DNA from: an uncultured Actinomycetes bacterium
GTDB taxonomy: Bacteria > Actinomycetota > Actinomycetes > Nanopelagicales > Nanopelagicaceae
Assembly: GCA_903827945.1 (NCBI GenBank)
Contig: CAIKKN010000006.1
Location: 62,001-126,000, forward strand
Length of the DNA: 64,000 nt
Direction of reading: 5' to 3'
The notes beneath the pieces were generated by a model. It saw nothing but the letters and a program-made list of their open reading frames with translations, made no database searches and was not told the DNA's origin. The position numbers were made by a program, and so were the translations under genes. The first letter of the stretch is position 1. Every line of letters starts with the position of its first letter. This document shows, in pieces, positions 21,014 through 41,856 of this stretch.

Positions 21014-22303
21014 ATGAGCGAGCCAACATTCTCTCCAGCATCAGCACTCGTCGGAGATCCATCTCAATTTGGCCGAGTCGCCGAAGATGGCGTCGTATAT
21101 GTGAGACTCCCAGAAGGTGAACGCGCTGTTGGTTCATACCCAGGTAAGACTCCGGAAGAAGCACTGGCATATTTTGTTCGCAAATTTGAAGCGGTTGCTT
21201 CAGAAGTCGCATTACTTGCTGCCCGAATCAAAAGTGGCGCACTCGTACCTTCAGATGCCCTTGAAGCAGTAACAAAACTTCGTCACCAAGTTGCCTCTTT
21301 AAATGGCGTTGGAGACCTCGCAACACTCGCTGCCTCCGTTGAGCAAATTCCAGATCTCATCGAAGGCCATCGGGCTGCATACGAAGCGCGCAAAGAAGCT
21401 GAGAAGGTTGTCAAAGATGCAAAGCGTGCCGAAGCACTCATCATTAAAGAAAAGATTGTTTCTGAAGCGGAATCCCTAGCTCTTTCAGAAAGTTGGAAGA
21501 CGACAGGCGAGCGTTTGAAAGTCCTACTTGAAGAATGGAAGGCAGCGCCTCGTCTTGATAAAGCTGCAGATGCAACTCTTTGGAAGAGATTTTCTGCCTC
21601 CCGAAATAAGTTTGATAAGCGCCGCCGTACCCACTTCTCGCAATTAGAGGCAGCCTCATCGGCAGTTGCTTCCAAAAAAGAAGAAATTGTCGCAGAAGCT
21701 AAAAAGTTGGCAACTTCCAAAGAATGGCTTCCAACTGCAAAGCGTTTCAAGGAACTGATGGATGCCTGGAAGGCCTCAGGTCGAGGTAAACAGAGTGTTG
21801 ATGCAAAACTTTGGGACCAGTTCAAAGCAGCGCAAGATCAATTCTTTGCTGCAAAAAGCGTTGATTTGGAAAAGCGTCAAGGAACCATGGCTGAAAATCT
21901 CAAAAAGCGCGAAGAGCTCATCCTTGAGATTGAAGCACTCCTTCCTGTGACGGATCTGAACTCAGCCCGCAAGAAGTTCCATGACCTAAGCGAGAAGTGG
22001 TTCAAGATTGGAATGACTGAGAGATCAAAGCGTGCAGCCTTTGATGCTCGTTTCTTGAAAGTTGAAAGTGAAATTGAGTCCATTCAAGAAGAGCAGTCAC
22101 GTAGAACCGATCCCACAGCCATCGCTCGCGCAAATAACGTGGTGCAAGGTCTACTTGATGCAATTGAAGAGTATGAAGAAAAGGCCGCTAAAGCAGAAGC
22201 CGCTGGAAACAGCGCTAAAGCTTTGGTTGCTCGTGAAGCGGCAGAAGCTCGCAAAATTTGGCTAGCAGAAGCTCAAAAAGGCCTCGCCGACTTCAATAAC
22301 TAG
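21014..22303 (+). CDS. DUF349 domain protein
   Basis: 429 aa from ATG 21014, chosen because a perfect AAGGAG (21002-21007) stands 6 nt before it; an in-frame ATG at 20984 is less likely. After an N-terminal segment (SALVGDPSQFGRVAEDGVVYVR) the protein is a chain of charged helical DUF349 repeats, each with a WKTTGERLKVLLEEWKA-like core (about 155-205, 230-285, 305-365), ending in a Lys/Glu/Ala coiled coil. Such proteins often lie beside rel in Actinobacteria. Function is unknown. Convergent with rel, with only 3 bp between stops. Confidence 0.85.
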   Translation: MSEPTFSPASALVGDPSQFGRVAEDGVVYVRLPEGERAVGSYPGKTPEEALAYFVRKFEAVASEVALLAARIKSGALVPSDALEAVTKLRHQVASLNGVGDLATLAASVEQIPDLIEGHRAAYEARKEAEKVVKDAKRAEALIIKEKIVSEAESLALSESWKTTGERLKVLLEEWKAAPRLDKAADATLWKRFSASRNKFDKRRRTHFSQLEAASSAVASKKEEIVAEAKKLATSKEWLPTAKRFKELMDAWKASGRGKQSVDAKLWDQFKAAQDQFFAAKSVDLEKRQGTMAENLKKREELILEIEALLPVTDLNSARKKFHDLSEKWFKIGMTERSKRAAFDARFLKVESEIESIQEEQSRRTDPTAIARANNVVQGLLDAIEEYEEKAAKAEAAGNSAKALVAREAAEARKIWLAEAQKGLADFNN

Positions 22304-34386: not shown

Positions 34387-35276
34387 GCGCGCTCCGAAGG
34401 CTCTTTAAAGTCGCCATCGATCCAAATTCGTTGAAGCATGTGCCAGTCGACAGTGTTCGCTACAATATTACTTGCAAACCTATCGGCACACTCCTGAACC
34501 ATCTGCTCAATCTTTTGCGCTTGTGTTCCAGTGTTTGGGATCGCAATCGGTTCTTGGAAAACAATTCTTATTTTGCCTGGTTCGTAGGTGACAAAAGCCG
34601 TGATGAGTGGTGCTCCGGTTTGAATCGACAAAACTGCTGGACCGAGCGGCATCCTTGATGGGTGGCCTAAGAAATTTACGTTAACGCCAGACTTAGACAA
34701 ATCCCTATCTGCAACTAGTGCAACAAGTCCCCCAGCACGCAACCTCTGGGAAAGTGTGCCAAGTGAGCGTGCACTCGCATCCAAAACTTCCATTCCGACA
34801 GCCTCCCGATACGCAAGAAACTTTCTAAATAGTTTCTCTGGTTCAAGATGCTCGGCAACAGTGACTACTTTGTAACCTAGAGCGCAGAAATACGCGCCTG
34901 CATGATCCCAATTTCCCGCGTGCGGAAGGGAGACTATGCAGCCGATTCCTTGATCTATCGGGTCGGTGAGAAAGTGTTGATTTTCGACTACAACATCGGC
35001 GATGATCTTTTCTTTGCTCCACGAAGGCAATCGAAATGTGTCACACCAATAGCGAAGATATGAACGCATTCCATTCTTAACAAGTTCTTCCAGCTCGAGG
35101 CCGTTAAGTTCTGGGTGCACCCTGGCGTAATTCAAACGAAGGCGATCAATCTGCCTTCCGCCTCTTCCATAAATTCGATCCGCAACGAATTGCGCAAGAG
35201 CGTATGCAATTTTACTCGGCAAGTAGCGAACGATAAACCAAGCGCCGTTGTATGCCCAGTAAGTTAAATTCTTCAT
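34383..35276 (-). CDS. patA: phosphatidylinositol mannoside acyltransferase (PatA-like)
   Basis: 297 aa, of the lysophospholipid acyltransferase (LpxL/HtrB) superfamily. The HxxxxD catalytic motif is His119-AGNW-Asp124. DLSKSGVNVNFLGHPSRMPLGPA matches the substrate-binding block. In mycobacteria the equivalent enzyme puts palmitate on the mannose of PIM1. Overlaps both pgsA and pimA by 4 bp, which supports the PIM assignment over lipid A synthesis; Actinobacteria make no lipid A. Confidence 0.85.
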   Translation of the reverse strand: MKNLTYWAYNGAWFIVRYLPSKIAYALAQFVADRIYGRGGRQIDRLRLNYARVHPELNGLELEELVKNGMRSYLRYWCDTFRLPSWSKEKIIADVVVENQHFLTDPIDQGIGCIVSLPHAGNWDHAGAYFCALGYKVVTVAEHLEPEKLFRKFLAYREAVGMEVLDASARSLGTLSQRLRAGGLVALVADRDLSKSGVNVNFLGHPSRMPLGPAVLSIQTGAPLITAFVTYEPGKIRIVFQEPIAIPNTGTQAQKIEQMVQECADRFASNIVANTVDWHMLQRIWIDGDFKEPSERA

Positions 35277-35875
35277 CGAGTTGCCTTATAAACAATGGCA
35301 AGTCTTTCAATGGTGGTGAAAAGTGTTGCAAGAGCAAGGATCCACATTCCTATTGCAAGGGCGTAAGGAATGGATAGTCCGGCCAGCGTAAGTGCGAGGA
35401 ATGTAATAATCAATCTTTCGGTGCGTTCGGCAAATCCACCATTGCATTCAATACCCAATGATTCTGCTCTTGCCTTTATGTATGAAACAAGATTTCCACC
35501 AACAAGCGCCGTCAAAACGACGGGTAAAAGTTGATCATTTCTCTGCGAAAGCCAATATGCCAAGGAACCTAAAACGGCGGCATCCGTGATTCGATCTAAA
35601 GTGGAATCTAGAAGCGCTCCCCACTTGGATCCTGTCTCAGATAGACGTGCCATAGTGCCGTCAAGCGCGTCGCTTAATACAAAAATTAGAGTGATTACAA
35701 CTCCGATAAAGAACTTTCCTCGAGAGAAGAAGTAAATTGCAGAAACTGATGAACCAATGGCACCGATGGCGCTCACAGCATTGGCACTGAGACCAAGACG
35801 AAGGAGCCCTCGACAGACCGGAGTAATTATCCGCGTGACAGGCGCTCTCAAAGAGTTCTGAAGCATCAGTCTCAT
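35273..35875 (-). CDS. pgsA: CDP-alcohol phosphatidyltransferase (phosphatidylinositol phosphate synthase type)
   Basis: 200 aa from ATG 35875 (MRLMLQNSL). An in-frame ATG further upstream would overlap the divergent gene; the chosen start leaves 16 bp between them. The family motif D-x2-DG-x2-AR-x8-G-x3-D-x3-D is complete: Asp69, Asp72-Gly73, Ala76-Arg77, Gly86, Asp90, Asp94. About six membrane helices. In the actinobacterial pimA cluster this enzyme joins CDP-diacylglycerol to inositol phosphate. Substrate is inferred from context. Confidence 0.88.
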   Translation of the reverse strand: MRLMLQNSLRAPVTRIITPVCRGLLRLGLSANAVSAIGAIGSSVSAIYFFSRGKFFIGVVITLIFVLSDALDGTMARLSETGSKWGALLDSTLDRITDAAVLGSLAYWLSQRNDQLLPVVLTALVGGNLVSYIKARAESLGIECNGGFAERTERLIITFLALTLAGLSIPYALAIGMWILALATLFTTIERLAIVYKATR

Positions 35876-35891
35876 CGTAGGCTTTTGCACT

Positions 35892-36458
35892 GTGAGCGAC
35901 CTAATTTCAGTAGCAATTATCGGCAAGTCTTCTCAGGATTTGGCGACTTCGCTCAATCTGAGCCCTGTTCCCCTCGAGGAAAGCGACCTTGCCATATTCA
36001 TTGTCAGCGCCATCGATGGAATCGTCCGGGCAGACATTGACTCGTGGCAATTTGCCCGGGACATGTACATCCCATCAATCGTTGTTATCTCTGAGACCGA
36101 TAACGCTGACCTGGATTTTGATGACATGACGGCTATCGCATCAAAAATGCTCGATCCCGTTGCAAGTAAATATTTGGTTCTCCACTCGGATGCCGGAGAA
36201 CCAACCGCGCTCATTGATTTAACGACCCTGAAGATTCTGGATTACTCCTCAGGAGTGCCTTCGATAATTGAGAGCGATGATGAACATAAAGAGCTCGTGG
36301 GTGAATATGTTCTGGAGTATCAAGAATTGCTTGAACAATCTGGTGACGACGGATTTACAAGAGGGCTTCTATTTCCGGCACTTCCTTGGATTAAGGCCTC
36401 AAACCTTGGCTTAGATCAGATGAAAGAATTAATTAACCAAATCCCAGCCGCCGGCTAG
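35892..36458 (+). CDS. unassigned protein resembling a decayed EF-G GTPase domain
   Basis: 188 aa, GTG start, acidic. No family was recognised outright, but two stretches look like elongation factor G. Residues 31-70 (SDLAIFIVSAIDGIVRADID, then a QFAR and IPSIVV run) match the EF-G region that leads into the NKxD motif, here changed to S-E-T-D70. Residues 125-185 match the helix pair and the FPVL-GSA-GV-LLD-PSP block after it, here FPALPWIKASNLGLDQMKEL and IPAAG. The P-loop is absent (IIGKSSQD at the N terminus instead of GHxxxGKT) and the switch regions are missing. It should not bind GTP normally. It is the only plus-strand gene between 22.3 and 40.9 kb and overlaps the HIT gene by 30 bp. 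Confidence 0.6.
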   Translation: MSDLISVAIIGKSSQDLATSLNLSPVPLEESDLAIFIVSAIDGIVRADIDSWQFARDMYIPSIVVISETDNADLDFDDMTAIASKMLDPVASKYLVLHSDAGEPTALIDLTTLKILDYSSGVPSIIESDDEHKELVGEYVLEYQELLEQSGDDGFTRGLLFPALPWIKASNLGLDQMKELINQIPAAG

Positions 36459-36968
36459 AGCGCTTCGCGTATCTTGAAGTAACTGCGGCAGCACTTTTGT
36501 TTGTCCAATGATTGGCATGAAATTAGCATCGCCAGCCCAGCGCGGAACTACGTGTTGATGAATATGAGCCGCGACCCCTGCACCGGAGACCGAGCCCTGA
36601 TTCATTCCTAGGTTAAAACCATTGGCACCGGAAACCTTACGCAAGACTTTCATTGCATGTGCAGTTAGTTCAGATATTTCACTTCTCTCTGATGCACTTA
36701 AATCCGTAAGGTCTGCCACGTGGCGATACGCGCACACAAGAAGATGACCGGCGTTATATGGATATAAATTCATAACTACATAGGCCTCTTCGCCGCGATG
36801 AACGACTAGACCTTCTTCATCATTCATTCCCGGCACAGCGCAGAACGGACATGGCACATCATTACCCGGCAGTGGTCGATTCTCACCAGATAAATAATTC
36901 ATTCGATGTGGTGCCCACAAGCGAGACCAACCATCAGGCATTCCTGCCCCGCCAGTTAGCTCAGACAT
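36429..36968 (-). CDS. HIT-family hydrolase/phosphorylase (Ap4A phosphorylase-like)
   Basis: 179 aa. Histidine triad HxHxHxx is H135-I-H137-Q-H139-V. An N-terminal CPFC (Cys40, Cys43) with downstream histidine suggests a zinc site. Layout and the LWAPHRMNYL start match the mycobacterial diadenosine tetraphosphate phosphorylase that also sits between thrS and pgsA. Acts on dinucleoside polyphosphates by inference. Three bp from thrS, so co-transcribed. Confidence 0.85.
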   Translation of the reverse strand: MSELTGGAGMPDGWSRLWAPHRMNYLSGENRPLPGNDVPCPFCAVPGMNDEEGLVVHRGEEAYVVMNLYPYNAGHLLVCAYRHVADLTDLSASERSEISELTAHAMKVLRKVSGANGFNLGMNQGSVSGAGVAAHIHQHVVPRWAGDANFMPIIGQTKVLPQLLQDTRSALAGGWDLVN

Positions 36969-36970
36969 AA

Positions 36971-38959
36971 TTAAATCTGCTTACGTTCTTTTACTGCGTT
37001 CAAAACCTCTTGCATGGCATCTTCAATTGAAATGCCATTCTTTTGTTCTCCGTTGCGGTAACGGAAGGAGACAGTATTTGCTGCCTGATCTTCTTCACCA
37101 GCAATCAACATGAATGGAATTTTCTCCAACTGTGCATTTCGAATCTTCTTCTGCATTCGCTCATCTGCAGTATCAACATCGATACGAACTCCGCTTTTAC
37201 GCATCTTCGCTGCGATATCTTGCAAATATGGCAGAAACGCATCGGCTACGGGGATGGCGCGAACTTGAACTGGGGCCAGCCACGGTGGGAATGCGCCTGC
37301 GTAATGCTCGGTAAGGACGCCAAAGAATCTCTCAATCGAACCAAATAGCGCTCGGTGGATCATCACAGGTTGCTGACGCGATCCATCACTTGATTGATAT
37401 TCCAAATCAAATCTTTGAGGTAACTGGAAATCAACTTGAATCGTGGACATTTGCCAGGTTCGACCAATTGCATCTTTTGCTTGTACAGAAATTTTTGGTC
37501 CATAAAAAGCGGCCCCGCCAGGATCAAGCACTAATTCCAAATTCTGCTTCTCGGCTGCGAGACGTAGCGCTTCGGTGGCCTCTTCCCAATCCTTATCTTC
37601 GCCAACTGATTTAGCTGGATTCCGAGTTGAAAGTTCAAGGTAGAAATCGACTAGACCATAATCGCGCAGCAAATTGAGAACGAATGTAAGAAGTGAATCA
37701 AGTTCTCCCGGCATCTGCTCTTTTGTGCAATAGATATGTGCATCATCCTGCGTGAATCCGCGAGCGCGCGTTAAGCCGTGAATCACTCCTGATTTCTCAT
37801 ATCGATACACAGTGCCAAACTCGAATAGGCGAAGAGGCAGTTGGCGATATGAACGACTGCTTGATTTATAGATCAAGTTATGGAACGGGCAATTCATCGG
37901 CTTCATGTAATACTTTTGGCCGGCCTTTTTAATTGTCCCATCGGCGTGGAGTTCTTCATCCATGATCATCGGTGGATACATTCCTTCTGAATACCAATCA
38001 AGGTGACCAGAAGTTTCAAAAAGCGCTGCTTTTGTTAGATGAGGTGAATAAACGAATTCGTAACCTTCTTCTTCATGGCGATGCCTTGAGTAATCCTCCA
38101 TGGCGCGCCGAATAATTCCGCCCTTTGGATGAAAGACTGCAAGTCCACTTCCAATTTCATCTGGAAAGGAGAAGAGATCAAGTTCTGTTCCAAGTCTGCG
38201 GTGATCTCGCTTTTCAGCTTCAATGAGGAGTGCTAGGTGAGCATCAAGATCCTCTTGTGAGGACCATGCGGTTCCATAAATTCTTTGCAGCATCGGATTC
38301 TTTTCAGAACCACGCCAGTACGCCGCAGCCGTACGCATTAATTTGAAGGCCGGAATCTGCTTTGTAGATGGAAGGTGAGGCCCTCTACATAGATCACTCC
38401 AGACGGGTTGTCCGTCTCGCCCAAGGTTGTCGTAAATAGTGAGTTCGGCTCCACCTACTTCAACATTGGATTCATCATCACTGCCAGACTTCAAGCCAAT
38501 AAGTTCGCACTTGTAAGGCTCGTGCGCCAATTCTTTAAGTGCGTCGGCCTCGCTTGTAACTCGTCGGCGAAAACGTTGCCCAGCCTTTACGATCTTTCGC
38601 ATTGCCGATTCAAGTTTTACAAGGTCCTCGGGAGTGAATGGCTTCTCTGGATCAAAGTCATAATAAAAACCATCGGTGATTGGAGGCCCTATTCCAAGTT
38701 TTGTCTCTGGGAAAACTTCTTGAACAGCTTGGGCAAGAACGTGGGCAGTGGAATGTCGAAGGACCGATAAGCCCTCGGGTGATGAAATGAGAATCGACTC
38801 AATGACGTCGCCATCCTGCAACTCCGTCCAAAGGTCACGGAGTTCTCCGTTGACCTTACAAACGACCACATCTGTCATTGGCGCGAAGATATGTGTTGGC
38901 CTGGTCTCTGGATCTATGAGTTCCTTGGAGCCGTTGACGCTTACAGATATCTGGGACAT
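36971..38959 (-). CDS. thrS: threonine--tRNA ligase
   Basis: 662 aa, full length. N-terminal TGS domain, the editing domain with [11 protein letters not shown] and a distal HxxxH-type site, the catalytic domain with [12 protein letters not shown] (zinc cysteine) and [15 protein letters not shown] (motif 2), and [20 protein letters not shown] (motif 3). The C-terminal anticodon-binding domain ends in KERKQI. First gene of the thrS-HIT-pgsA cluster. Confidence 0.97.
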
Positions 38960-41589: not shown

Positions 41590-41856
41590 AGCTTCATTTT
41601 TCCGACATCGCTTCGCGTGCAAACGCAGGCATTCACTCTCGCCACCACTGGCGCCAAGTTTGCTCGTAGGGATCCTTCGTTACGCGCTTGCGAAGAATGT
41701 TCGCAAAGGTTTGGCTCCGCAAGAGACGGTCTAGACCCAAACATTTGGCAGACTTTCTTGAGGGTATCTCTCCCAATTTCGAGGCGCCGCTGCTACCTTA
41801 TTGCCCGTAATTGTCCGCGCATCGAATGATGCCCTCTCCAACTCGGAGGTTAATTG
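41590..41856. other. 267-bp spacer between tRNA-Val and the permease, no gene seen
   Basis: No convincing coding sequence, hairpin or tRNA is visible. Short frames on either strand lack a ribosome binding site and have compositions unlike the neighbours. The last 12 bp hold the GGAGG (41845-41849) of the permease. A promoter for the permease must lie here, but no clear -35/-10 pair was found. Confidence 0.6.

Follow-up and report, generated by a model that had tools for sequence, protein, structure and literature searches.

The 188-aa protein encoded at positions 35892-36458 of the window (the whole 64,000-nucleotide stretch of DNA analysed here) is almost certainly an orthologue, eroded in place, of the actinobacterial EF-G-like factor EF-G2. 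The remnant consists of the G-domain core minus switch I, beta2, beta3 and switch II, together with most of the G' subdomain. The relic and its neighbors are arranged as follows:

35273..35926, - strand: pgsA-like gene, the divergent neighbor of the relic, in a locus conserved in relatives
35892..36458, + strand: eroded EF-G2 orthologue, 188 aa, GTG start, predicted pI 4.05
36429..36968, - strand: HIT-type gene, convergent with the relic and overlapping it by 30 bp
36971-38959, - strand: thrS, beyond the HIT-type gene

The gene at 35273..35926 is taken to be pgsA from the original prediction and sequence inspection, and the HIT-type and thrS genes are presumed to be such from established sequence motifs, not a family search. 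The relic frame has no internal stops and a GC content of 0.473, similar to that of its neighbors (0.46–0.49), in keeping with its earlier description as full-length, stop-free and of balanced composition. It had also been called the sole gene on its strand in 18 kb, and the flanking rightwards-transcribed frames indeed end at 22303 and begin at 41854, with none other between them. Candidate pgsA ATG codons at 35875 and 35866 place the two start codons 16-25 bp apart. No clear Shine-Dalgarno sequence is visible upstream of the relic GTG, and leaderless translation is therefore possible.

The relationship to EF-G2 is evident at several levels of comparison. The single relic sequence matches the NCBIfam EF-G2 model (NF009377) at 3.2e-12 and 45.7 bits, below the family cut-off of 890 bits, and Pfam GTP_EFTU at 1.1e-4, under its gathering score; a single-sequence search of the PDB recovers M. 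smegmatis EF-G2 (9k0z). A profile built from full-length EF-G2 sequences matches the relic at 5.8e-21, and hhalign alignment of the relic profile with the full-length EF-G2 profile gives a probability of 99.8 (E = 4.6e-30) over 161 columns, corresponding to window residues 24-184. The EF-G2 model is matched by 29 of 30 relic orthologues and is the best family match, with no other family fitting them better. Chance similarity or a different fold is ruled out by the profile-profile match and the structure search (see below). The proposed alignment with EF-G thus holds in that the similarity is far above chance, but the parent is the paralogue EF-G2 and not EF-G1.

An AlphaFold2 model with the 30 natural orthologues as input (pLDDT 88.8, pTM 0.85) has the predicted topology beta1-alpha1-beta4-alpha3-beta5-alpha4, four G' strands, a long helix, and beta6-alpha5. 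In the PDB, Foldseek places T. thermophilus EF-G-2 (1wdt) and M. smegmatis EF-G2 bound to the ribosome (9k0z) at the top, with E-values of ~4e-10 and a TM-score of 0.7, followed by EF-G and RF3. Structure prediction and structure search thus both return the EF-G domain I fold rather than an unrelated one, and bear out the description of the protein as a free-standing relic of the EF-G GTPase domain. The GTPase fold expected of a pseudoGTPase is likewise present in the predicted model and in the Foldseek matches, with the sheet cut to beta1-beta4-beta5-beta6; as we read the model, loss of beta2-beta3 would take one edge of the sheet and leave this core, and the protein should fold stably. The segments of the relic are:

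35910..35951, + strand: beta1, degenerate P-loop position and alpha1 (residues 7-20); AlphaFold2 secondary structure and alignment to full EF-G2
35958..35963, + strand: deletion junction, residues 23/24; EF-G2 57-119 absent here, DTPG in 0/30 orthologues
35976..36104, + strand: beta4-alpha3-beta5, ending at the former NKxD site S-E-T-D70 (residues 29-71); family search, PDB search, AlphaFold2, motif scan and hhalign
36171..36272, + strand: G' subdomain beta-sheet (residues 94-127), starting with YLVLH; AlphaFold2, conservation and hhalign
36276..36350, + strand: acidic helix A of G' (residues 129-153); AlphaFold2, alignment to EF-G and conservation
36375..36434, + strand: beta6-alpha5, the end of the G domain (residues 162-181), with the G5 SA motif lost; AlphaFold2 and hhalign

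Two parts of domain I are deleted, EF-G2 residues 57-119 (switch I, beta2, beta3 and DTPG/switch II) and 251-274 (a helical hairpin of G'), and domains II-V are gone, leaving domain I only of the five-domain architecture. The P-loop, switch I and switch II had all been thought missing; both switches are indeed absent, but the P-loop segment is present in degenerate form. Window residues 6-20 align to EF-G2 35-52, with EF-G2 GHSGSGKTTL replaced by GKSSQDLA, and the degeneration is clearest in orthologues such as L041, where ALIGHPTADLP stands opposite EF-G2 VLVGHSGSGKTTL. Beta1, the P-loop position and alpha1 seem to remain, a reading drawn from model topology and multiple alignment, since this segment lies ahead of the point at which the local profile alignment begins.

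None of the 30 orthologues has any of the Walker A/G1 (GxxxxGK[ST]), G3 (DTPG, DxPG) or G4 (NKxD) motifs, in agreement with the view that this is not a working GTPase. As judged from sequence, every canonical GTPase motif is missing and the relic is predicted neither to bind nor to hydrolyse nucleotide. Conservation peaks in the first G' strand, YLVLH (4.1 bits). Next come beta6 and the second G' strand, both at 3.2 bits, then alpha4 at 3.1 bits, and values are low, about 2.1 bits, around the rim of the former nucleotide site. It is improbable that the relic binds a nucleotide or small ligand at a rebuilt site and acts as a non-canonical switch or sensor: the predicted model retains a Rossmann-like core that includes beta1 and alpha1, and the conserved G11, D75 and H98-x3-G102-x-P104 segment are otherwise unexplained, but G1, G3 and G4 are absent from all 30 orthologues and the rim is among the less conserved parts.

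Matches at E <= 0.01 were found in 143 of 151 sampled Nanopelagicaceae genomes; a few of the weakest are EF-G proper, so that ~141 of the 151 keep the relic. In the non-matching genomes the locus is mostly missing or cut by a contig end, as a close pgsA is absent or the sequence ends just past pgsA. The Nanopelagicaceae (f1) loci examined share one gene order, thrS-HIT-[gene]-pgsA-acyltransferase-pimA, and in every one the relic lies between the HIT-protein gene and pgsA. This same-locus conservation extends over the 17 sampled Nanopelagicaceae genera, one of which has a full-length form and one an intermediate. The full-length form, in genus g14, is a 736-aa EF-G2 with intact motifs (GHSGSGKT, DTPG, TKLD); the intermediate, in genus g6, is an EF-G2 form of 343-349 aa (~345 aa) at the same spot. 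Full-length EF-G2 occupies this position in most other Actinomycetia families examined. A second full-length EF-G2 was not seen in the 151 genomes searched, and their remaining full-length matches (~35% identity) are taken to be EF-G1.

The locus is thus the ancestral EF-G2 locus, at which EF-G2 was shortened in place to one domain by internal deletion and C-terminal truncation. In a thrS tree g6 and g14 form a pair (97/89) whose sister group is the relic-bearing genera (99/96). The simplest account is therefore a single origin of the ~190-230-aa form in the common ancestor of the relic-bearing genera, and a separate one of the ~345-aa form of g6. The C-terminus of the g6 intermediate (L035:7122-7427, L051:7707-8009) is EF-G domain V-like in order and position, although the resemblance is not significant (hhalign probability 3.8; domain E-value 0.7). 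A functional link to pgsA or phospholipid synthesis by position was considered and rejected, as the full-length EF-G2 of relatives is already there; since this is the ancestral EF-G2 locus, adjacency to pgsA tells nothing about function. The g14 locus has three extra open reading frames between full-length EF-G2 and the HIT gene (L043:8833-10715), two of which by sequence inspection are homocysteine methyltransferase-like and RNA methyltransferase-like and the third is short; the short-relic loci have no room for them.

Purifying selection maintains the relic. Among close orthologues dN is 0.10-0.27 and dS is saturated (1.5 or more), and the relic dN is similar to that of pgsA, HIT and the acyltransferase. 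Together with the same-locus conservation over Nanopelagicaceae this agrees with the proposal that the gene is retained and not decaying. A decaying pseudogene that has not yet acquired stops might be suspected from the stepwise shortening along the lineage and from one disrupted-looking copy (L273), but it is very unlikely given that relic orthologues are open and without internal stops across Nanopelagicaceae at about 30-85% identity, that dN is far below the saturated dS, and that lengths are confined to 188-234 aa in 30 orthologues; the open frames and low dN led us to reject it. Equally slight is the prospect that a transcript or divergent promoter regulating pgsA or the HIT gene is what is kept, rather than a protein. 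The divergent starts are only ~16 bp apart and the convergent HIT overlap is 30 bp, as such a reading would have it, but selection acts at the amino-acid level over the frame outside the overlaps, and full-length EF-G2 shows the same arrangement.

Shortening is not restricted to Nanopelagicaceae. Families f34 and f39 were searched with the full-length protein as query, which favors no segment. Some f34 genera have full-length EF-G2 and others short forms of 228-419 aa; f39 likewise includes genera with full-length EF-G2 and others with short forms of about 315-345 aa. All of the shortened forms retain EF-G2 profile positions of about 112-226 (beta4 to the G' helix), which in several of them are nearly all of the recognizable part, and EF-G domain I is likewise matched by a model of a 248-aa f34 form (pLDDT 84.4). 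Full-length and short states on the thrS tree require at least six changes (parsimony, reversals allowed). EF-G2 has been shortened independently in these two further families, each time with the same segment retained. Short EF-G2 forms seem to occur mostly in small genomes. The relic profile has no match in the small f5 genomes G198, G225, G242, G258, G273 and G285, one of which is 100% complete, suggesting that EF-G2 or its relic has been wholly lost there. The same-locus shortenings in f34 and f39 (L112-L117, L193-L202) are independent, with full-length copies in sister genera. The full-length EF-G2 genes of f39 in L191 and L192 have no pgsA, HIT or thrS within the 9-11 kb around them, unlike the f39 short forms, which are at the usual locus.

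EF-G2 is widespread, but what it does is not well defined, in part because ribosome-dependent GTPase activity is lacking in mycobacterial EF-G2. PMC3150367 describes M. smegmatis EF-G2 as binding guanine nucleotides but without ribosome-dependent GTPase activity, and its function has been termed ambiguous (PMC9067457); a parental role without GTP hydrolysis is thus plausible. In M. tuberculosis EF-G1 the G' subdomain glutamates E221, E225 and E228 touch the L7/L12 stalk (PMC8446442), and the negative L7/L12-binding G' region is also conserved in EF-G II (PMC3150367). These glutamates are taken as E224, E228 and E231 of V. vulnificus EF-G because the spacing is identical, and profile alignment to that protein maps the contact positions to E145, Q149 and D152 of the window protein, with acidic residues at these sites in 73%, 57% and 83% of orthologues respectively; E131, E138 and E142 are acidic in 97-100%. 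This genome also encodes a bL12 with the usual KIAVIKEVR C-terminal surface.

A role in translation, as originally suggested, is one that we infer for the relic. The likeliest mechanism, although one to which we give somewhat less than an even chance, is that the relic is a module independent of nucleotide and uses its acidic G' helix to bind the bL12 stalk. The relic would work nucleotide-free as a ribosome-stalk ligand, with its conserved helix A binding the bL12 C-terminal domain in the manner of its EF-G counterpart, and would compete with EF-G and other factors that the stalk recruits, or modulate their recruitment. Such a stalk role could be the remainder of a non-translocating EF-G2 role. 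Against the stalk model, one of the three contact positions in the window protein is Q and not E, the acidity is general (pI 4.05) and not limited to helix A, and the relic alone might bind bL12 too weakly. The YLVLH conservation peak may be structural, and helix A may therefore be kept for folding and not for bL12.

Nearly as likely as a stalk ligand is a pseudo-G-domain that acts as a protein partner off the stalk, for example by pairing with EF-G1 or another GTPase or by scaffolding, in the way of several eukaryotic pseudoGTPases. A predicted folded core retained without nucleotide motifs would suit this role, as would the finding that the G' strand and its neighbors, not the acidic helix alone, are most conserved; however, the neighborhood is just the ancestral EF-G2 locus and indicates no partner gene, and the L12-facing positions are mostly still acidic. 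For the stalk-ligand reading there is a broader and more tentative form, which we regard as possible: that a free-standing, nucleotide-free half G domain plus G' evolved repeatedly in small-genome Actinobacteria as a dedicated bL12-stalk ligand regulating factor recruitment, the same segment being converged on in three families.

The relic has in common with actinobacterial EF-G2/EFG II (NF009377; 9k0z; 1wdt) its locus, the beta4-alpha3-beta5-alpha4-G' sequence, the acidic G' helix and the predicted domain I fold, but differs in length (188 aa versus ~700 aa) and in lacking the G1-G5 motifs, the switch regions and domains II-V. The archaeal SelB-like factor aSelBL, with its disrupted G domain, is similarly a translational GTPase descendant with P-loop deletions that is still kept though it probably lacks the usual GTP hydrolysis (PMC3037878). 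It retains the more conserved domains II and III and ribosome and tRNA sites, whereas in the relic no more than a portion of the G domain and G' is left. Eukaryotic pseudoGTPase domains (p190RhoGAP, PMC5593906; degenerate septins, PMC10731463) have likewise lost the catalytic site and keep the fold as a binding or architectural element. Unlike the relic, they come from other GTPase families and are not derived from translation factors. To our knowledge, their core sheet is not cut down by a beta2-beta3 deletion.

Degenerate translational GTPases and pseudoGTPases are already known, but a literature search for truncated or free-standing EF-G2 fragments found no report, and the available parts of PMC4342817 and PMC3150367 do not report a truncated form. 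The locus offers a natural deletion series of full-length, ~345-aa and ~190-250-aa forms. Retention by selection of one segment alone, independently in at least three families, points to the part of EF-G2 that does the lasting job, which a small domain makes testable. It also shows that selection can continue to act on a translational GTPase after all of its switch elements have gone, here in a family of abundant small-genome freshwater bacteria, and suggests that a piece of a molecular switch may still be of use when the switching itself is lost.

Relic loci also occur in records with unexpected titles. One Bacteroidetes-titled record (L273:918-1693) has a Nanopelagicaceae-type locus with the relic split over two frames, which may mean that the gene is truly disrupted, that sequencing introduced an error or that the genome carries the wrong label. 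Four MAGs titled Bifidobacterium breve (L235, L247, L259 and L264) contain the Nanopelagicaceae relic and are probably mislabelled.
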